Source: an uncultured Bacilli bacterium
GTDB lineage: Bacteria > Bacillota_I > Bacilli_A > RF39 > UBA660
Reading direction: 5' to 3'
Assembly (NCBI GenBank): GCA_947628565.1
Contig: CANRAH010000001.1
Coordinates: 62,001-126,000 of the forward strand
DNA: 64,000 nucleotides
In this document: positions 49,217 to 63,252 of the stretch, in pieces
How the letters are laid out: every line of letters starts with the position of its first letter
Position numbering within the stretch: the stretch's first letter is position 1
Position numbers and translations under genes: made by a program
Notes under the pieces: model-generated
Told to the model about the DNA's origin: nothing
Seen by the model: the letters and a program-made list of their open reading frames with translations, nothing else
Databases searched by the model: none

Positions 49217-50107
49217 ATGTTAATTAAAGAATTATCAGAAAAATATAAAATTTCTGAATTTGAATTAAATGGTATAATTTCTAAAATGAAGTCAACGATT
49301 TTAGATACTTATCAAAAAGATGATGAAATCCCAACTGCAATATTTACGGGTGGACAACCTGGAGCTGGGAAAAGTGCTATTGTATTAAAGTCTAAAATAG
49401 ACTTGGCAAGAAATAATAAAGATTCAATAGTTTTTGATCTAGATTCATATAGAGGTTTATTTAGTAAATCACTTGAAATTGCCCAACAATATCCTGAATA
49501 TTTTCAAGTTTTAACTAATCCATATTCTGGAAAAATAATGGAAAAATTGTCTAATATGGCAATAGAAGAGGGGTATAATTTTATAATGGAAGGAACTATG
49601 GGAAAATCTGTATATACTCTTGATGTTCTTTTAGAATCTGGAAAAAAATATAACATTATAGCAAGATTGTTAGCAGTTTCACGTGAAGAATCAATCATTT
49701 CTATGTTTGAAAGGTATATTTTAATGGAAGAAAAGTCAGGATTTGGACGTTTAACAACTATTAAAGAGCATGATGTAAGATATGAAAATTTTCCAAGCAT
49801 AGCCTCAACGTTAGAAGATAAGGGTGTAGAAGTAGAAGTTTATGAAAGAACAGAGGACATTAAAAATCCTAAATTAACATATAAAACATCAAATAAAAAA
49901 AATAACATATATAATTCTGTTGTTCAAGCTATTGAATTAGGTAGGGAAACTAGTAGAAAAAAATGTTATGAAACTTATGAAGAAAGATTAGAATATATTA
50001 ATTATAAATTTAAAGAATTTAATGTAAACAAGGGATTAATGGAAGAATTAAACAAATTAAATGAGATATTCCAATATAATCCTAAAAAGAAAGAAAAGAA
50101 GATTTAA
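49217..50107 (+). CDS. Zeta-toxin family kinase
   Basis: 296 residues. The zeta fold is indicated by Walker A GGQPGAGKS (residues 45-53), the DLDSYR motif (FDLDSYRGLF), NPYSGKIMEKLSNMAIEEGYNFIMEGTM, and the lid-region arginines in VSREESIISMFERY. Zeta toxins phosphorylate UDP-N-acetylglucosamine and related UDP sugars, blocking wall synthesis. Here it is the last gene of an operon that makes UDP-glucuronate and UDP-xylose, so a biosynthetic or housekeeping kinase role on a UDP sugar is as likely as toxicity. GGGGGATGATTAAATATG context supports the start. It ends in a terminator shared with the convergent kinase-like gene. Confidence 0.85.
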   Translation: MLIKELSEKYKISEFELNGIISKMKSTILDTYQKDDEIPTAIFTGGQPGAGKSAIVLKSKIDLARNNKDSIVFDLDSYRGLFSKSLEIAQQYPEYFQVLTNPYSGKIMEKLSNMAIEEGYNFIMEGTMGKSVYTLDVLLESGKKYNIIARLLAVSREESIISMFERYILMEEKSGFGRLTTIKEHDVRYENFPSIASTLEDKGVEVEVYERTEDIKNPKLTYKTSNKKNNIYNSVVQAIELGRETSRKKCYETYEERLEYINYKFKEFNVNKGLMEELNKLNEIFQYNPKKKEKKI

Positions 50108-51358: not shown

Positions 51359-51388
51359 TAAAAAAATATAATCTTATATGATTATATT
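51359..51388 (-). terminator. Intrinsic terminator of the nucleotidyltransferase gene
   Basis: AATATAATC (51365-51373) / GATTATATT (51380-51388), 6-base loop. On the minus strand the stem is followed by a T run (A tract 51359-51366 on plus). Confidence 0.8.
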
Positions 51389-52161
51389 AAATCTTCATTT
51401 TTTTTACATAAAACTATTCTATGATTATTTTTATCAAAATTAATGTCCTTAATTGTAAATTTTAACAAATTTAATAAATCAATGAATCTATTTTTTACAG
51501 TTGAACTTTCATCCAAACACCTTAAATATAATTTAATGAAATATTCATCTGGATTCTCTTTCTTTATTGCCTTTCTATAATCATCATTTAACATAACTTT
51601 CAGTGCCTTTGTCCTAGAAACACCTGGAAGTCCATTGTAAGAGAAATATAAATCTTTTATCCTTTCCAATGTTAAGTGAAATATGTGATTAGCATATATA
51701 TCATTGTTTTCAATTAAATTTTTTAAATCATCTATAAAATTACTTATAATTGCAATTTGTTCTTTTGTCTCTTCTATATCAAGTTTTGGAAGGGGTTTTG
51801 AATAAACTTCTGTTATAAAGTTTTTAAGTTTATTTATTTCACCATTTCGGTCAAATATTGTATTACCATAAACTATCATAGAAACAACAGCATTACCTCT
51901 TTGCTTATATTCATTAATAGTTTTATCATACATACTTCTTAGACTTTTTTCAAAATATTCTATTCTATATCCATCAATAAAACTTGAACCTCTAATTTCT
52001 TCTTTGATGTTATTATTAAATATTATATGTAAATCTATATCGGAAAATTTGTTAGCGAATCCTGTTTGATTGCTGCCATAAAATATTATTCCTTCAACAT
52101 CTTTATTTTCTAAATACCCCATTTTATTCACAAATTTTTCTATAATATTTGTGAATTTCAT
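51382..52161 (-). CDS. Nucleotidyltransferase-fold protein
   Basis: 259 residues from the ATG whose first base is 52161, with AGGTGG upstream and a TG-C-TATAAT box on the minus strand; the longer in-frame start would overlap the promoter. The polymerase-beta-type nucleotidyltransferase motif is GIIFYGSNQTGFANKFSDIDLHIIF, with Gly-Ser followed by D-x-D (two metal ligands). The C-terminal half is helical, as in aminoglycoside adenylyltransferases and related proteins. It could adenylylate a small molecule or protein. No direct sign of resistance function. It stands alone. Confidence 0.82.
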   Translation of the reverse strand: MKFTNIIEKFVNKMGYLENKDVEGIIFYGSNQTGFANKFSDIDLHIIFNNNIKEEIRGSSFIDGYRIEYFEKSLRSMYDKTINEYKQRGNAVVSMIVYGNTIFDRNGEINKLKNFITEVYSKPLPKLDIEETKEQIAIISNFIDDLKNLIENNDIYANHIFHLTLERIKDLYFSYNGLPGVSRTKALKVMLNDDYRKAIKKENPDEYFIKLYLRCLDESSTVKNRFIDLLNLLKFTIKDINFDKNNHRIVLCKKNEDLI

Positions 52162-52358
52162 ATTGTTACCACCTAACCAAATTATAGCATATTTCAAAAT
52201 ATAAAATAAATATTTTTTGTCTGAAATGTCGAATTTTGTGTTTTAAATTACTTTTTATTGATGTAATAATGAAAAACTTATGAATTTTATTTTAATTTTA
52301 TTGCTAATAAAGTAAATCTGATGTATAATAATATCCTAACTAGAGGAGGTAAGTATAT

Positions 52359-53002: not shown

Positions 53003-53030
53003 TTGCAATTTATTTGTCAAGTGGTAAAAT
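53003..53030 (+). promoter_or_regulatory. Promoter of the candidate small RNA
   Basis: TTGCAA (53003-53008), 16-base spacer, TAAAAT (53025-53030) with TG one base before the -10 box. Confidence 0.65.
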
Positions 53031-53140: not shown

Positions 53141-53191
53141 TTGACAATAATTGGAAAAAGTTGTAGAGTATATCTCCTAATGTGAAAAGCG
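53141..53191 (+). promoter_or_regulatory. Promoter of the conjugation operon with shared leader element
   Basis: Perfect -35 TTGACA (53141-53146), 17-base spacer, weak -10 TAGAGT (53164-53169). TGAAAAGCG lies at 53183-53191, 42 bases after the -35 start. An inverted repeat ATATCTC (53170-53176) / GAGATAT (53191-53197) brackets this 9-mer. The block AAAAGTATTGACAA and TGAAAAGCG recur at 43267-43318. Confidence 0.7.
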
Positions 53192-53243
53192 AGATATCCT
53201 TTACGGCGCTTCTTATTTTAGGGAATAAGGGTGGTGTTGGAAC

Positions 53244-53372
53244 GTGAAAGCAAATTTTAAAAAATTTAGTTATAATAATTCATTTTTATCATTAATTACT
53301 GTCTTTGTTCTTAGAAAAGAGGAAAATACATTGGGTGTATTTCCCTCTTTTTTGGAAATTGAATACGAATGA
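53244..53372 (+). CDS. Leader peptide of the conjugation operon
   Basis: A 42-codon ORF starting with GTG at 53244 after GGGTGGTG, beginning MKANFKKFSYNNSFLSLITV and ending EIEYE with TGA at 53370-53372. It reads through the entire terminator hairpin (53316-53351) and stops on the ATG of the next frame (ATGA). Translation would open the hairpin and let transcription continue, so it looks like a regulatory ORF. The hydrophobic middle could also make it a small membrane peptide. Confidence 0.6.
   Translation: MKANFKKFSYNNSFLSLITVFVLRKEENTLGVFPSFLEIEYE
53316..53353 (+). terminator. Leader terminator (attenuator) of the conjugation operon
   Basis: AAAGAGGAAAATACA (53316-53330) pairs with TGTATTTCCCTCTTT (53336-53350) with one mismatch, 5-base loop, T run to 53353. 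It stands between the promoter and the first structural gene of the operon. Confidence 0.85.
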
Positions 53373-53380
53373 GGCTTAAT

Positions 53381-53863
53381 ATGAATAACGAAAGAGTATT
53401 TGATTTTAAAATTAGTGATTCATTAATTGATAATCCATTAATTTCAAAAAAAGAGTTATTAAATTATGATATAAATGAGTGTTATAACAAAGTAAAGGAA
53501 GAAATAAACAAGTATATTTCTTATCAGTTTAATTATCCATATATTCAAAAACCTAGAATTACATCAAACTATGAAATAAGATATGAGTGTTTTGTTCCAA
53601 AAGCAGTGGATAAGATAGGACAATATGTTGAGAAGGTTTGTACAATGGAGGAAAAAATTGTAAGGTTATACAGTGATATTTCTTTGGGATTAAGTTCATT
53701 AAGTAAAAGTGAATTTACATATTTCTTAAATTGCTTATATTTTAAAAAGTCTGAAAACAGTTGCATAGAAGAATTGCAAACAACAAGATTCTTATTCAAT
53801 CATTTAAAAGCAAGTTGTATTGTTAAATTAGCAATAGCTTTAGATGTAGCAAAACATAACTAA
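53381..53863 (+). CDS. ArpU/sigma-like regulator of the conjugative element
   Basis: 160 residues from the ATG at 53381 (GAGG at 53371-53374); an ATG at 53369, overlapping the leader-peptide stop, is possible and would allow coupling. The C-terminal half, EKIVRLYSDISLGLSSLSKSEFTYFL and NSCIEELQTTRFLFNHLKASCIVKLA split by function, has the two-step helix pattern of ArpU/RinA-type late regulators, which resemble sigma region 4. That family link is moderate. A terminator follows directly, so later genes need readthrough or another promoter. Confidence 0.55.
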   Translation: MNNERVFDFKISDSLIDNPLISKKELLNYDINECYNKVKEEINKYISYQFNYPYIQKPRITSNYEIRYECFVPKAVDKIGQYVEKVCTMEEKIVRLYSDISLGLSSLSKSEFTYFLNCLYFKKSENSCIEELQTTRFLFNHLKASCIVKLAIALDVAKHN

Positions 53864-53882: not shown

Positions 53883-53933
53883 GTTTATAGGGACCTCGTT
53901 ATAAAAAACTAAAAAGAAAGAGAGGTGAAAAAA

Positions 53934-54167
53934 ATGACAGATTTAAGAATTTCTGTGTCTGATGATTTAAAATCCTTCATTAAGGAAAGAGCGGATGAAC
54001 TAGAAATGAGTTGTTCAGAATATATTAGAACTCTTGCATATCTTGATATTTCTGTTCAAAGATATCAAAATTTAGTTGATTATGTTTTTATGACTTATGA
54101 TAGAATTAATGATATGCAGAATAGGCTAAATATGACTGCAATTCCACTTCAAAAATTAGAAATGTAA
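53934..54167 (+). CDS. Ribbon-helix-helix protein (relaxosome/MobC-like)
   Basis: 77 residues from the ATG at 53934 (GAGAGGTG upstream; a GTG at 53925 is in frame). The beginning LRISVSDDLKSFIKERADELEMSCSEYIRTLA is a ribbon-helix-helix DNA-binding unit: a short strand, then two helices. In conjugative elements such proteins bind the transfer origin or control transcription. The second half is helical. It is the first gene after a terminator, at the head of the transfer genes. Confidence 0.75.
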   Translation: MTDLRISVSDDLKSFIKERADELEMSCSEYIRTLAYLDISVQRYQNLVDYVFMTYDRINDMQNRLNMTAIPLQKLEM

Positions 54168-55003: not shown

Positions 55004-57346
55004 ATGAGTATAAAGAAATTATTTAAAAACACCACATTAATAATTGGTGTTTTATTTTTATTTATTTTAGGTATAAAAAGTGTTTTTGCACAAGAAGAAG
55101 TACCATTTTATACTAGAGCTATAAGAGATGGCTCAGGTCAAGTGCGTTTTCAATATTCTATTTATGGAAAGATTGGAAACTTTGTAAAAATAATGAGATA
55201 TGATAATAATGATATAGCATATTGTATTGAACCAACAAAAGATATCTTAGACTTTTCGCAAGGTAGTTATGCTTATGTAGAAGATTTACCATCAATAATA
55301 GATATATCCAAATTATCAAACGAAACTATCTCAAGATTGCAATTATTATCATATTATGGATATGGATATGGGGATCATTCAGATGATTCTTGGTATGCTG
55401 CTACTCAATTAGAAATTTGGAATACTGTTATGCCCGGTTGTTGTACAATAGCTAAAGGAGATTCTGCTTTAATTGATAGAAATAGAAATGCAATAAATGA
55501 ACTTGTAAATGGGGTTGTTTCAATTCCAAGTTTTCACGGTACAACTAAAAATCAAGTTATAGGTAAAACAGTTGAATATGAAGATAATAATAATGTTATT
55601 AGTAGTTACAAGGTAAAAAATTGTGAAAATTGCGAGGCCAGTATTAAAAATAATAAATTAGTGGTAAAAGGAACTAAAGTTGGTTCTGCAACTGTTGAAT
55701 TAGAACGTGTTATAACAAATTCTAATGAACCTAACATTCTATATTATAATGCTGATTATCAAAAAGTTATGCATTTTGGTTCACCAGATCCAAGAGAATC
55801 TATTATGTTTTTGAATGTAATTGGTGGTACTGTTAAGATTCAAAAGGTTGATAGTGATACCGGTAAAGTTCAAGTTCAAGGAGATGGAAGTTTTGAAGGT
55901 GCAGAGTATGGAATATATGATGCTGAAACAAAAGAACTTGTTGGAACTATAACAACTAATGAATCAGGTTATGGTGAACTTACTGTTGGTATGGGTAAAT
56001 TTATTGTAAAAGAGATAAAAGCACCTAAAGGTTATTTATTATCAGATGAAGAATTTGAAGTCGAATTTACTCAAGAACATATTGAAGAAAGTCTTTATCC
56101 TAAAGAACAAGTAATAAAAGGTCATGCTTTATTGACTAAATTATTTGGAGATGATGAGTTAGGATTTGTAGTAGAAGAAGGAGCAGAGTTTGAAATTTAT
56201 AATTCAAAAGGTGAATTAGTTACGACAATAAAAACTGATGAAGATGGTGTTGCTGTTGCAGATTTAGTATATGGAAGTTACACAATTCATCAAACTAAAG
56301 GTAAAAGTAAATTTTCATTTATTGAGGATATAAAATTTACTGTTTCAGAAGATGGAAAAATTTATAAATTTACAGCAAAAAATTTAAGTTATCCTAGAAT
56401 AGATATACAAAAGAAAGATAGATCTAATAATCAAGCATTAAAGGATGTAACTATCGAGATTTATAAATATAATTCAGATTTAGGGGTTTATGAATTATAT
56501 TATACTGGTGTTACTGACAATGATGGAAAAATAAAATTATCAGATTTAGATTTGGGTAAATATTATTATTTAGAAACAGATGTAAAAGGCTATGTTATAG
56601 ATAACGAAAAGCATTATTTTGAATTAAATGAATATGGAAAAACTTATTATTTTGAATTATATAATGACAAGATAAAAGGTAATTTTGAATTAGTTAAAAA
56701 AGATTCAGAAACGGGAGAATATTTAAAGGGTGCTAAAATAGAAATATACAATGCTGATACAAATGAACTAGTGTATAGTGGTATAACAAATGAAGAAGGA
56801 ATATTACTAATTGAGGATATTGAATATGGTAAGTATTATTGGATAGAAAAAAATTGTCCTGAAGGATATATCTTGAATACAGAAAAACATTATTTTGATG
56901 TATTAGAAGATGGTAAAACATATGAATTTGAATTTGAAAATGATAAAATCACAGGTGAATTAGATTTTACAAAAGAGGATTTATCTACTAGTGAACCAAT
57001 TCCTAATACACTAATTGAAGTATATGATGCAGATACCGATAGTCTAGTATTTAGTGGTAGAACTGATGAAAATGGTAAAATTGTAATTAAGGATTTACCA
57101 TACGGAAGATATTATATACTTGAAAAAGAGACAGCTTCAGATGATTACATTTTAAACACAGAAAGAATGTATTTTGAGATTAAAGAAAATGGTGAAATAG
57201 TTAAAGCAGTTATGACTAATAGTAAAAAAATTGAAGTACCAGATACTTTATCAAATACATATTATCATTTAATACCAATAGGTATTTTTTTAATAGGAAT
57301 TATTTTATATATAATTTCTAAATTTAAAAAGAATAAAAAGGTTTAA
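55004..57346 (+). CDS. Thioester-domain and CnaB-repeat adhesin
   Basis: 780 residues. Signal peptide (cleavage likely after VFA, residue about 30). The N-terminal domain has the paired thioester motifs YCIEP (Cys near 74) and TQLEIW (Gln near 134), which form an internal Cys-Gln thioester used for covalent attachment to host or other targets. Five CnaB/SpaA-type repeats follow (about 285-740), each with a Lys near the start and E in a YxxxE-like strand that can form isopeptide bonds. The C-terminus is VPDTLSN, a hydrophobic helix and basic tail, a sortase-like sorting signal variant. It is encoded inside the conjugation operon, so it probably aids donor-recipient or host adhesion. Confidence 0.85.
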   Translation: MSIKKLFKNTTLIIGVLFLFILGIKSVFAQEEVPFYTRAIRDGSGQVRFQYSIYGKIGNFVKIMRYDNNDIAYCIEPTKDILDFSQGSYAYVEDLPSIIDISKLSNETISRLQLLSYYGYGYGDHSDDSWYAATQLEIWNTVMPGCCTIAKGDSALIDRNRNAINELVNGVVSIPSFHGTTKNQVIGKTVEYEDNNNVISSYKVKNCENCEASIKNNKLVVKGTKVGSATVELERVITNSNEPNILYYNADYQKVMHFGSPDPRESIMFLNVIGGTVKIQKVDSDTGKVQVQGDGSFEGAEYGIYDAETKELVGTITTNESGYGELTVGMGKFIVKEIKAPKGYLLSDEEFEVEFTQEHIEESLYPKEQVIKGHALLTKLFGDDELGFVVEEGAEFEIYNSKGELVTTIKTDEDGVAVADLVYGSYTIHQTKGKSKFSFIEDIKFTVSEDGKIYKFTAKNLSYPRIDIQKKDRSNNQALKDVTIEIYKYNSDLGVYELYYTGVTDNDGKIKLSDLDLGKYYYLETDVKGYVIDNEKHYFELNEYGKTYYFELYNDKIKGNFELVKKDSETGEYLKGAKIEIYNADTNELVYSGITNEEGILLIEDIEYGKYYWIEKNCPEGYILNTEKHYFDVLEDGKTYEFEFENDKITGELDFTKEDLSTSEPIPNTLIEVYDADTDSLVFSGRTDENGKIVIKDLPYGRYYILEKETASDDYILNTERMYFEIKENGEIVKAVMTNSKKIEVPDTLSNTYYHLIPIGIFLIGIILYIISKFKKNKKV

Positions 57347-57376: not shown

Positions 57377-57757
57377 ATGAATAGTATTAATAAAATATGT
57401 GTTATGGGCCGTCTTACTAAAGATCCTGAATTAAGGGAATTAGAGGATGGAACTAAAGTTACGAATATCACTCTAGCTTTAGATAGAGATTATAAAAGTA
57501 AAGAGGGTAATAAAATTACTGATTTTTTAAACTTTGCACTTTGGAACAAAAATGCAGAGAGAATAGTAAAATATTCAAAAAAAGGCTCTTTAGTATATCT
57601 TGAGGGTTATGTTACTTCTAAAGAGATAGAAACTAAAGAATATAATAATTTAAATATAATGATACCTATTATCGAAGTATATAAACATATAGCAAGTAAA
57701 AAAAATGTTGAATCAAAAGATACAGATACCGTTAAAGATGAGAAGGTAGAAAAGTGA
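57377..57757 (+). CDS. ssb: Single-stranded DNA-binding protein of the element
   Basis: 126 residues with the OB fold of SSB: NKICVMGRLTKDPELRELEDGTKV, FLNFALWNKNAERIVKYSKKGSLVYLEGYV split by length. The C-terminal tail is charged but lacks the DIPF-type tip that binds partner proteins in chromosomal SSB. Element-borne SSBs protect incoming or leaving single-stranded DNA during transfer. AAGGGGG precedes the ATG. Its stop overlaps the next start. Confidence 0.88.
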   Translation: MNSINKICVMGRLTKDPELRELEDGTKVTNITLALDRDYKSKEGNKITDFLNFALWNKNAERIVKYSKKGSLVYLEGYVTSKEIETKEYNNLNIMIPIIEVYKHIASKKNVESKDTDTVKDEKVEK

Positions 57758-58833: not shown

Positions 58834-60492
58834 ATGTTCTTTTTAAGTATATCAAATGACATAAAATATGGTGTACTTGATATCTTACGTGGACTTGGAA
58901 TAGGTATAGTAGATATACTTTATTCTACTATTGATACTCTTTATGAGGTCGCACAAAAAGTAAATAGTATAAATTTTATACAATTACTTGAAAATATGGA
59001 TAATTCTCCATTTACAAAAATATTTAATGCTTTTTTTGTTTTATCATTTGTAGTTTTATTATTATTTGCAGTATGGAAAATTACATTTAGAATATTAGAT
59101 GCGGATAATAATGAACAACCTTTATTTGAAACAGTTAAAGAAATAATTAAATGTGGCTTTTTAATATTTTGTATATATCTCTTATTTAATACAAGTATTA
59201 ATTTAGGTATTAATTTATCTAATGCTATTTATAATAACTTTAATGAAAATTCAAGTATTGGTGATAAGATGAAAACAGCTTATTTATCTGTAAATGATTC
59301 TTGTTATAAAATTGATGGTGGAGAAGATACTGATAAAGAAAATGTTGATGATTTAAAAGATAAGTTAGATGGATATGTAGATCTAAGTAGTGTAAATACT
59401 ATGGAAGATTTTGAAAAATTAATAAGAAATGGAACACTAACAGAAACACATATTTCTGATTCAGGTGCTTTTTCATATCGATGTGGAATTTATAAACCGG
59501 GTAAGTGGAATGATGGTGAAGATTATGCTTTTGATTATAATTTTATATTTGGAATTGTAATGGGTGTAATATTCCTATTTGCTATTGGTTTCGCAGTAGT
59601 AATGTTGGGTAGAAGGCAATTAGAAATTGCTTTTTTAATGACAATTTCGCCACTTGTTATAGCAACAAGTATTGGTAGAAAGGAACAACGCTCAGCATTA
59701 TATCAGCAATTAACTAGTTTAGTATTACAATCAGGAGCAATGATGTTACTTATAGGTCTTACATCAATAATGTTTGGAGCAATTCAAAATAGTGAAGTTA
59801 TAAATAGTATGAGTTATTTCACAAAAATAGTTGCACAAAGTATTCTATACATAGGATGTGCAATGATGTTGCTTACAGGTTGTACATCAATTAATAGATT
59901 TATTGGTGATAATGTATCAGCAAATAGTGGTAGAGATATGATGATGGCAATGAGAGGTTTAACAACAAGTATAGCAGGTGCAGGAGCACTTGGAATAGGT
60001 GCACTTAAAGCAGGAAAAGATACTATAAAAGGTGGATTTAAATCTGGAAAGGGTATTGGAAATATTGCTAAAGGTGGATTTCAATCTGCCAAAGGTCTTT
60101 ATCATGGTGTAGCATCAGTAAATCCTGGTATGAATAGTCGTCTATCTAAAAAAATGAATGATAAGATGGGTAAGGCAGCAGGTAAAATGACAAAAGGTGA
60201 AATGCTTCAAAATAGTTCAAATCCATTTGCTAGAGCTTATGGTAGAATGATGGAAGAAAAAGGTAGAGAATCAATGCAAGATATAGCAAAACAATGGGAT
60301 TTTGCTAATGATAAATATAATCCAGAATATATCAGAAGTGGTGTTCAAAGTGCAAGAGATGGTATTAATAGTATAAAGGATGGTTTTGGTGGTGCGTTCG
60401 ATAGCATTAGAAATATAGCAAGTCCAAGAATAGCAAGATATATGTCAAGACCAAAAATAACAAATGCAAGAGGACAGGGTAGTAGTATTTAA
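58834..60492 (+). CDS. VirB6/TrbL-like type IV secretion membrane protein
   Basis: 552 residues, with six or more transmembrane helices (about 55-75, 105-125, 232-258, 265-285, 300-320, 335-355) and a long Gly/Ala/Lys-rich C-terminal tail (about 385-552). The TrbL signature is the helix pair around GRRQLEIAFLMTISPLVIA, with a large extracellular loop before it. It forms part of the inner-membrane channel. The tail is probably cytoplasmic and may interact with the ATPase. ATG at 58834 follows the pilin stop by 2 bases. Confidence 0.85.
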   Translation: MFFLSISNDIKYGVLDILRGLGIGIVDILYSTIDTLYEVAQKVNSINFIQLLENMDNSPFTKIFNAFFVLSFVVLLLFAVWKITFRILDADNNEQPLFETVKEIIKCGFLIFCIYLLFNTSINLGINLSNAIYNNFNENSSIGDKMKTAYLSVNDSCYKIDGGEDTDKENVDDLKDKLDGYVDLSSVNTMEDFEKLIRNGTLTETHISDSGAFSYRCGIYKPGKWNDGEDYAFDYNFIFGIVMGVIFLFAIGFAVVMLGRRQLEIAFLMTISPLVIATSIGRKEQRSALYQQLTSLVLQSGAMMLLIGLTSIMFGAIQNSEVINSMSYFTKIVAQSILYIGCAMMLLTGCTSINRFIGDNVSANSGRDMMMAMRGLTTSIAGAGALGIGALKAGKDTIKGGFKSGKGIGNIAKGGFQSAKGLYHGVASVNPGMNSRLSKKMNDKMGKAAGKMTKGEMLQNSSNPFARAYGRMMEEKGRESMQDIAKQWDFANDKYNPEYIRSGVQSARDGINSIKDGFGGAFDSIRNIASPRIARYMSRPKITNARGQGSSI

Positions 60493-60777: not shown

Positions 60778-63252
60778 TTGGTTACGAAAAATTTATTTAG
60801 TAAACTATTTAAAAGGAATAGAAAGAAAAAAGAAGAAAAAATAGTGAAAAAATTAAAAAAGAAAAAAAATGATGAATATATAACTAAAACTTTATTAAAA
60901 AAGAAGTTACAAAACTCACAATCATTTATTAATATAAAAGAGATAAGTGATAATGGAATAATAACTTTAAAGTCAAATCAATATTCGATTTTATATAAAG
61001 TTAGTCCAATAGATTTATCTTTAACAAATGAAAATGAGCAAAAATTATTTTTTCATACTTTATCTAAATTATATAGATTACCTTTTACAATTAAGGCCTA
61101 TAAATTTGATGAAAAAATTAATTTAAATATTAACAAAGAAAACTATTTAAATTTATTAGATAATGTTTCTGATAAGGCAAGATATAATATACTTATGGCT
61201 AATCATAATTTCATAGAAACAATAGAAAATGAAAATATGACTTCTGCTAGTTCATATTATTTTGCAATTATATCAAAAACAAAAGAGGCATTAGATAAGA
61301 ATAAAGAAGAATTTGAACTTGCTTGTTCTAATATTGTACCTAAACTTGAAATAGAACAAATAAAGAACAAGAAAAATTTAATAAAGATTTTTACTAATAT
61401 GTATTTTTCAAATAATAATTTAGATCAAATAATATCATATGATCTAATAGACTTAATAACACCATCAAATCTAAGTGAACAAATATCATTTTTAAAATTT
61501 GATGATAAAGAAGTACAATTAGTTGCTATCAAAAATTACCCATTATTTATTGAATATGGATTTTTAGATAGAATAATAAATTTACCAAATGTAAAAGCAA
61601 GTGTAACAATTAAAGATTCTATTGAACAGTATAAATTATTAAATGTTTTAAATAGTAGTTTTAAAGCGGTTTTAGCAGATTATAACTCTAGTAAAAATTT
61701 AAGTGATGTAACAGAAATGCAGTCTCTTATGAGCAATTATAAATTGTTAATAGAGCAAATATCCGCTAACGATGAAAAGATAAAGGATGTAACAGTAATA
61801 CTGGCTATTACAGGAGATAAAAAAACAAGAGATGAGATAGTAAAGGAAATAAAAAGAAATGCAGAACTTTATCAAATAAGAGTTGAAATACCTAAAATGA
61901 GACAGATGGAAGCTTGGCAAAGTTATGATTTAACAGATAAATCATTTAGTGGATATTCAATGTATTTACCAACAGTAACACTTGCATCTACTTTCTTTTT
62001 TACTGAGAACTATCACAACGATACAACAGGATGGTTACTTGGTGAAGATTCTGCTTATGGTTTGCCAAATTTCTTTGATCCATACTATTTGAGTAAGAAT
62101 AGAACTAATCATAATGTAAGTGTAATAGGTACATCAGGAAGTGGCAAAAGTTATTTATTAAAATTGATGATTATAAATGAGTTTGCTAGAGGAACAAAAC
62201 TTTTTCTATTTGATATAGAAAATGAACTTCAGAAATTATGTGAAAGGTGTGGTGGGGAATATATAGACTTATCAAGTAAAAGTTTAGTAAATCCACTACA
62301 GGTAAGATATGTTATTACGGATGATGATGAAGAAACCTCTATATTAGGTAAGCATTTAGGTTTTTTAGAGAACTTTTTTACTACTGCATTTGAAGATATT
62401 TCAGAAAAAGAATTAGTAGTATTAATGGATATAGTAGAAAAATTTTATAATAGTAGGGGCATAAATAAAGGTACTACTTTAGAAGAATTTGAACAAATGA
62501 CTGCTAAAGATTATCCAATATTTTCGGATTTGTATGCTTATTTATTAGAAACTCAAAAAACTTGTGATAGTAAGGATCTATCAAGGATATTAGTAAATAT
62601 AGAAGTCCTATTAAAAAGATTATGTATAGGTCAAGATGCAAATTTATTTAATGGCATTACTACTATTGATTTAACCAATAATCTAATAGTATTTAATTTA
62701 CAAGAATTATTGTTTAATTCAAGTAGAAGATTAATCAATACACAGATGATTAATCTTTTAACATATTTAAGTAACGAGATAGTAGATAATAAAAAGAGAA
62801 ATACTAGATTTGGAGAAGAACAAAAAATAATGATTGCTCTTGATGAATTTCATAATTATATTGATGAGGATAATCCAACTTTATTAAAATATTTCGACCA
62901 ATTAAATAGACGAGCAAGAAAATATAAATTATCAATAGTAATTGCAAGTCAACAACCAAATGATTTTACAAGTAGAGCAAATATTTTAAGACACGCATCT
63001 GCAATATTTAATAATTGTCAGTATCAATTTACTGGTATGTTAAAAGATACTGATATAGAATCTGTTGAAAAATTGTACTCTAATAGTCCACTAACTGAAA
63101 CACAAAAGATGTTCTTAAGTCGTTGTAGTCAAGGTCAATTTTTACTCAATATAACTAATAAGAATAGATTAAGGGTAAATGTTTTTGCAACACCAATCCA
63201 AACCTATTTTATGGGTGAGAGTGATGATGTGCCAGAACTATTAGAGATATAA
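60778..63252 (+). CDS. VirB4/TraE-type conjugation ATPase
   Basis: 824 residues, starting with TTG at 60778 behind AGGAGGGG. The N-terminal half (about 30-400) is the VirB4 family domain. Walker A is VIGTSGSGKSYLL (near 451-458), Walker B MIALDEFHNYIDED, and the arginine-finger region LNRRARKYKLSIVIASQQP matches VirB4 motifs. It powers assembly of the channel and DNA transfer. A basic N-terminus (KRNRKKKEEKIVKKLKKKKND) may bind membrane or DNA. The start has no better alternative. Confidence 0.94.
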   Translation: MVTKNLFSKLFKRNRKKKEEKIVKKLKKKKNDEYITKTLLKKKLQNSQSFINIKEISDNGIITLKSNQYSILYKVSPIDLSLTNENEQKLFFHTLSKLYRLPFTIKAYKFDEKINLNINKENYLNLLDNVSDKARYNILMANHNFIETIENENMTSASSYYFAIISKTKEALDKNKEEFELACSNIVPKLEIEQIKNKKNLIKIFTNMYFSNNNLDQIISYDLIDLITPSNLSEQISFLKFDDKEVQLVAIKNYPLFIEYGFLDRIINLPNVKASVTIKDSIEQYKLLNVLNSSFKAVLADYNSSKNLSDVTEMQSLMSNYKLLIEQISANDEKIKDVTVILAITGDKKTRDEIVKEIKRNAELYQIRVEIPKMRQMEAWQSYDLTDKSFSGYSMYLPTVTLASTFFFTENYHNDTTGWLLGEDSAYGLPNFFDPYYLSKNRTNHNVSVIGTSGSGKSYLLKLMIINEFARGTKLFLFDIENELQKLCERCGGEYIDLSSKSLVNPLQVRYVITDDDEETSILGKHLGFLENFFTTAFEDISEKELVVLMDIVEKFYNSRGINKGTTLEEFEQMTAKDYPIFSDLYAYLLETQKTCDSKDLSRILVNIEVLLKRLCIGQDANLFNGITTIDLTNNLIVFNLQELLFNSSRRLINTQMINLLTYLSNEIVDNKKRNTRFGEEQKIMIALDEFHNYIDEDNPTLLKYFDQLNRRARKYKLSIVIASQQPNDFTSRANILRHASAIFNNCQYQFTGMLKDTDIESVEKLYSNSPLTETQKMFLSRCSQGQFLLNITNKNRLRVNVFATPIQTYFMGESDDVPELLEI

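Follow-up and report, generated by a model that had tools for sequence, protein, structure and literature searches.

Why should a short reading frame run through a terminator-like hairpin directly in front of a conjugation operon? The question is raised by a locus in a window of 64,000 nucleotides, the whole stretch of DNA analyzed, which stems from a 1.4-Mb metagenome-assembled genome. Judged by its gene content, the locus is a conjugative element with the leader at the head of the transfer operon (Table 1). The first operon gene, which encodes a putative regulator, is followed by genes for a NikA/MbpA-like protein, an SpaA-domain protein, SSB, a pilin-like protein, a transmembrane protein, and VirB4, the last of which starts about 7.4 kb 3' of the regulator. 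Past the end of the window, an M23 peptidase, a TraG/VirD4-type coupling protein, and a large serine recombinase are encoded. The SpaA-domain surface protein is possibly a mating adhesin.

Table 1. Features of the locus, in window coordinates; promoters and hairpins are predictions
Feature	Position	Strand	Details
Zeta-toxin-type kinase	49217-50107	+	Upstream of transfer operon
Nucleotidyltransferase	51382-52197	-	Weakly similar to MntA antitoxin; upstream of transfer operon
P1, predicted promoter	53003..53030	+	TTGCAA-16-TAAAAT, TG before -10 box, conserved TTGTCAAGTG element
T1, short weak terminator-like hairpin right after P1	53077..53098	+	GGGATTAAAAAATCC and T-run; -6.3 kcal/mol (folding)
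P2, predicted leader promoter	53141..53169	+	TTGACA-17-TAGAGT, 10/12 matches
5' leader hairpin region	53176..53222	+	CCTAAT...AAGCG...CGCTT...TTAGG; conserved blocks in L003, L004
Shine-Dalgarno-like sequence (SD) of leader ORF	53230..53236	+	GGTGGTG, 7 nt 5' of GTG
Leader ORF	53244..53372	+	42 codons, GTG start, TGA stop beyond hairpin; MKANFKKFSYNNSFLSLITVFVLRKEENTLGVFPSFLEIEYE
T2, intrinsic-terminator-like hairpin within leader ORF	53314..53352	+	T-run 53348-53353
ArpU / sigma-region-4-like regulator, first operon gene	53381..53863	+	Alternative upstream ATG at 53369
NikA/MbpA-like relaxosome accessory protein	53925..54167	+	80 aa; matches below curated cut-offs
Surface protein	55004-57346		780 aa, thioester domain and five SpaA (prealbumin-like) domains, repetitive; within conjugation operon
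Single-strand binding protein (SSB)	57377..57757	+	PF00436, 3.4e-23
Conjugation transmembrane protein	58834..60492	+	pLS20_p028 / MMCAP2_0566-like; E ~2e-17, below cut-off
VirB4-type conjugal transfer ATPase	60778..63252	+	NF045975, 8e-137, below curated cut-off

The original prediction had described a GTG-started frame of 42 codons spanning a hairpin with 15-bp arms at 53316-53350, and the leader is indeed built in this way, the arms fitting the hairpin here named T2. The duplex of the leader SD with the anti-SD is computed at -8.3 kcal/mol, and the frame, equipped with these initiation signals, crosses T2 as a whole before reaching its TGA codon at 53370-53372. T2 folds as GAAAAGAGGAAAATACAT(TGG)GTGTATTTCCCTCTTTTT, at about -16 kcal/mol and with one internal mismatch, and is predicted to terminate transcription in the window. 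Its T-run follows the stem and is partly contained in it, which is probably why a simple terminator scan of the window did not call T2: part of the T-run counts as stem. An Rfam search of the leader returned no match above the gathering score, the only matches being chance, microRNA-like ones.

The gene behind the leader, called as an ORF from 53369 to 53863, has its homologous start at ATG 53381, preceded by the SD GAGG, according to the alignment with its relatives. Neither Pfam nor NCBIfam contains a model with a direct match to the window protein. Its aligned homologues match phrog_248 'transcriptional activator' (20/25) and TIGR01637 ArpU (14/25) at E up to 0.1, and PDB profile and predicted-fold matches point to sigma region 4, weakly and with none at E <= 0.001; on these combined grounds the regulator is called ArpU-like. 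A tblastn search of plasmids with the window regulator, at E up to 0.1, found nothing, nor were matches obtained by blastn in plasmids or by tblastn in plasmids and phages. A class-level search at E 1e-12 recovered the regulator family from the window's own family alone.

Whether the arrangement of frame and hairpin is more than a peculiarity of one genome can be judged from the relatives. The search for regulator homologues covered genomes from the order (288) and from the family (386) and led to 85 loci, all from the same bacterial family, whose upstream sequences were taken; a subgroup alignment used as query led to nine plus one loci. These relatives are uncultured Bacilli from rumen and gut, and their loci are numbered with the prefix L. 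In 66 of the 85 loci, T2 is found at the same distance from the gene (between -95 and -8), and it is accompanied by an SD-preceded leader ORF in 57 of these 66. The leader ORF is undetectable in the other nine, among them L006, which has VirB4 downstream. The original prediction had staked itself on the leader ORF being kept in related elements, as it proves to be, and had proposed to compare peptide and hairpin across them; that comparison finds the layout of hairpin and ORF conserved, and the peptide not.

In a strict version of the test, an ATG-started ORF of at least 15 codons with an SD had to enter T2. This was the case in 42 of 53 non-redundant loci, against 2.2 +/- 1.4 (at most 7 across 200 rounds) when the 190 nt upstream were dinucleotide-shuffled, while among the 66 other terminators of these loci only 1 has such an ORF. 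When ATG, GTG, and TTG were all admitted, 44/53 loci passed against 5.5 +/- 2.2; the window, with its GTG start, passes this version only. The locus sequences come from assembled metagenomes, and these counts refer to a family sample from which near-duplicates were removed, without phylogenetic weighting. The terminator and SD criteria were set after the first loci had been inspected, and the same rules were used to judge the control terminators and the loci fetched afterwards, five of five of which show the layout, all belonging to one subgroup and two having the same leader. The layout of leader ORF and T2 is thus real and widely conserved in one family of uncultured gut Bacilli.

The layout also goes together with conjugation genes. 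A co-oriented VirB4 gene lies 7.4-14 kb downstream in 25 of the 57 leader loci, a lower bound owing to contig breaks and with a handful of distances read by hand from search tables, as opposed to none of the 23 loci that lack T2 (Fisher p 3e-5). A different order is found in the subgroup of L011, L017, L019, L026, L037, and L045, with VirB4 18-25 kb upstream; in the single member inspected, the locus of L017 (L096, 9107-10789), leader and ArpU-like gene precede a large serine recombinase gene.

The leader stop falls a median of 15 nt into the T2 stem. Of the 57 loci, 32 have it in the 5' arm, 10 in the loop, and 4 in the 3' arm; in another 10, including the window, it is past the hairpin, and in 1 it is just in front. 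The distance from stop to regulator start is 24-66 nt in most relatives, and the gene has a strong SD of its own. This bears on the proposal that the leader, ending in an ATGA, is coupled to the next reading frame. The overlap exists at 53369-53372, where the TGA shares its bases with an ATG, and it recurs in four loci (L023, L044, L052, L053). However, the conserved gene start is ATG 53381, 8 nt behind the window stop, and the stop position in most relatives shows that the family does not generally have the overlap, which is probably incidental. In the window, in L003 and L004, and in the other loci with a stop beyond T2, predicted RNAs terminated at T2 would contain a frame lacking its stop codon, for which, unlike in most relatives, ribosome rescue should be needed.

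The leader peptides are unrelated between subgroups and share no arrest motif, and pairwise counts of synonymous and nonsynonymous changes indicate weak or no constraint on the peptide, most pairs having many amino-acid changes; L009/L010 are an exception, with 4 synonymous and 0 nonsynonymous changes. Third codon positions nevertheless hold 26 of the 50 differences in five close pairs (binomial p 0.005), an excess which suggests that the leader frame is read. Frame-preserving indels were considered as evidence and found unusable, since the length of any ORF is by definition divisible by three, and the lengths of nucleotide gaps carry no signal (122/484 inside the ORF, 61/280 in the UTR). To judge by these substitution patterns, what is kept is translation into the hairpin and not the leader peptide.

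In silico folding addresses what such translation might do. The minimum free energy prediction for the ribosome-free leader contains T2 in 45 of 45 loci. The ORF segments are complementary to the 5' arm of T2 at no more than chance level (mean z +0.15, p 0.30), offering no support for a general antiterminator, and the complementarity of the upstream sequence to the 3' arm is weak overall (mean z -0.34, p 0.03). Nor do the 45 loci support the idea that the ORF end generally sequesters the leader SD (mean z -0.16, p 0.30); pairing of the SD with the ORF end just before T2 is strong in only a few of them (L011, L017, L037) and suggestive in the window. A modelled ribosome parked at the stop abolishes T2 in 30 of the 32 loci with a stop in arm or loop, whereas one parked at the window stop leaves T2 intact. 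With T2 as the default fold, no competing ORF segment, and a parked ribosome that removes T2, translation should favor readthrough.

The locus is therefore likely to contain a ribosome-coupled transcription attenuator that gates the ArpU-like gene and, by way of this gene, probably all of the conjugation operon in an integrative conjugative element. The best reading of its action would be translation-dependent antitermination of the pyrBI or Tn916 tet(M)-leader type. The RNA polymerase would start at P2, or read in from P1, and transcribe the leader ORF and then T2. With no ribosome close behind, T2 would fold and transcription would end before the regulator gene; a ribosome translating the leader closely behind the polymerase would instead cover or melt the ascending arm of T2 and allow readthrough, so that the act of translation would count and the leader peptide would not. 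In the window, whose stop is past the hairpin and where T2 would survive a parked ribosome, the ribosome would have to be passing inside the hairpin as the polymerase reaches the T-run, and a moving ribosome may suffice. Bacillus-like RNA polymerases outrun ribosomes, so a pause of the polymerase would be needed. The signal that changes the coupling may be a drug, or the nucleotide or charged-tRNA state.

A precedent for this effect exists in E. coli, where a stop codon a few bases from the terminator tR2 reduced termination from ~90% to <10%, an effect that was gone once translation was uncoupled or the distance exceeded ~27 nt; an intrinsic terminator is repressed by ribosomes that stop no more than ~27 nt before it (Li et al., PMC4824070). 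Similarly, tight coupling at the pyrL leader prevents formation of the pyrBI terminator (PMC5021804). The ribosome-state switch of the original prediction is partly supported, by an attenuator layout that heads a conjugation operon and a leader ORF kept in relatives, and has to do without the ATGA coupling.

The region upstream of the leader has a conserved architecture of its own. A promoter scoring at least 9/12 precedes the leader ORF in 33 of 45 loci (12% in shuffles), and the P1 motif reaches at least 15/18 in 36 of 45, against 8 expected from lenient shuffles. In most relatives, the conserved P1 start TAGTAAAATGA is directly followed by the terminator-like hairpin T1, and the T1 hairpins of relatives at this place are stronger than that of the window. 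An inverted repeat, CTTGAC-N8-GTCAAG, covers the P1 -35 box and spacer in several relatives (for example L008, L009, and L032); the window P1 has a half-site only. Seven loci (L008, L009, L010, L015, L032, L035, L042) have an extra terminator-like hairpin before the leader ORF, at about -265 to -200 of the gene and with the shared motif GGGTAGAAGAAGCAGTAT...TACTGACTTTTTCGCCC TTTTTT. Similar ones occur in L005, L021-L023, L062, and L074, and AAGGAAGTAGTA... in others; the window is without it. L003 and L004, in which the 5' leader hairpin region has conserved blocks, are the two closest relatives.

A promoter with an immediate terminator, as in P1 and T1, recalls lambda pR'-tR' or AlpA-type antitermination. 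A two-step switch might exist in the conjugative elements of the family, where a peptide-independent sensor, registering through the leader whether the polymerase is kept up with by ribosomes, would release the ArpU-like factor which, being Q- or AlpA-like, would act at P1-T1 and let the polymerase pass the operon terminators; this extension is rather unlikely. The same architecture can be turned against the attenuator, with T1 and T2 as insulating terminators against stray transcripts, authentic transcription passing them by processive antitermination (through an equivalent of conAn of pLS20 or canT of Tn916, or through the ArpU-like protein as antiterminator) and the leader ORF being a minor matter. 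Such systems operate at the start of conjugation operons in Gram-positive plasmids and in Tn916 (PMC8955417, PMC11658703), several loci have two or three successive terminators, T1 stands directly after P1, and the regulator resembles a transcription factor. This explanation does not, however, predict an SD-preceded ORF that enters T2 (42/53) and hardly ever another terminator (1/66), nor the position of the leader stop, and a conserved antiterminator RNA was not found among the loci, which leaves it rather unlikely.

The other explanations concern the role of translation itself. A drug-arrest attenuator of the ermK, msrD, or trp kind, in which a stalled ribosome yields an antiterminator and normal translation leads to termination, is known to control resistance genes on mobile elements (PMC5418344, PMC4335068), and both of its parts, leader ORF and terminator, are there. 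With a stop inside the terminator arm, however, full translation would block termination rather than favor it. As the peptide is not conserved and an antiterminator was not found, an arrest peptide of the ErmK or MsrD kind is very improbable, and a sensor of how well transcription and translation are coupled overall is the better fit; a plain sensor of this kind would not have to be inducible by drugs. The leader might also serve translational coupling, delivering ribosomes to the regulator or opening its ribosome binding site, with T2 merely in the way. The closeness of the window stop to both regulator ATGs, and the recurrence of ATGA, agree with this, but the more distant stops and the strong SD of the gene in most relatives make it quite improbable. 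Finally, a chance frame lying across a hairpin with an independent terminating or insulating role would be in keeping with an unconserved peptide in a short, AT-rich sequence; given the shuffle and natural controls, the held-out loci, and the third-position excess, it is extremely improbable.

If the attenuator reading is true, a large group of uncultured gut bacteria would have its decision to transfer DNA tied directly to the physiological state of ribosome and RNA polymerase, by a sensor that selection holds as a layout while its peptide drifts. The family would offer dozens of natural variants of how the stop position within a terminator sets readthrough, and drugs targeting translation would have a possible route to alter conjugation.

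Among the systems compared, the pyrL leader ORF spans the pyrBI attenuator of E. coli, and the window, with its stop beyond the hairpin, has the pyrL geometry. Both have a short leader ORF on which a close ribosome would prevent the terminator from folding (PMC5021804, PMC4824070). Unlike pyrBI, the locus described here is without a known link to UTP or pyrimidine genes, most relatives have their stop within the ascending arm, and the leader precedes an ArpU-like regulator in a conjugative element. The attenuators of ermK, msrD, BmrB, and VmlR in Firmicutes also combine a leader ORF with a terminator in the 5' RNA, but they rely on stalling and an antiterminator (PMC5418344), neither arrest motif nor antiterminator being seen in the leaders compared here. 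With conAn of pLS20 and canT of Tn916 the locus shares controlled terminators at the start of a conjugation operon; in those systems a protein and/or RNA acts on the RNA polymerase, whereas the conserved part here is a translated ORF overlapping one terminator. The analogy with Tn916 attenuation drawn by the original prediction is apt. According to PMC9154091, which cites Su et al. 1992, Tn916 is regulated at least partly by transcriptional attenuation that tetracycline and other translation inhibitors partially relieve, and orf12 is named there as the tetM leader peptide. Both cases involve a mobile conjugative element, and attenuation in Tn916 answers the state of translation (PMC9154091). 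In Tn916 the leader precedes tet(M); here the next gene is ArpU-like and not a ribosomal protection gene, the leader directly preceding the regulator of the conjugation operon.
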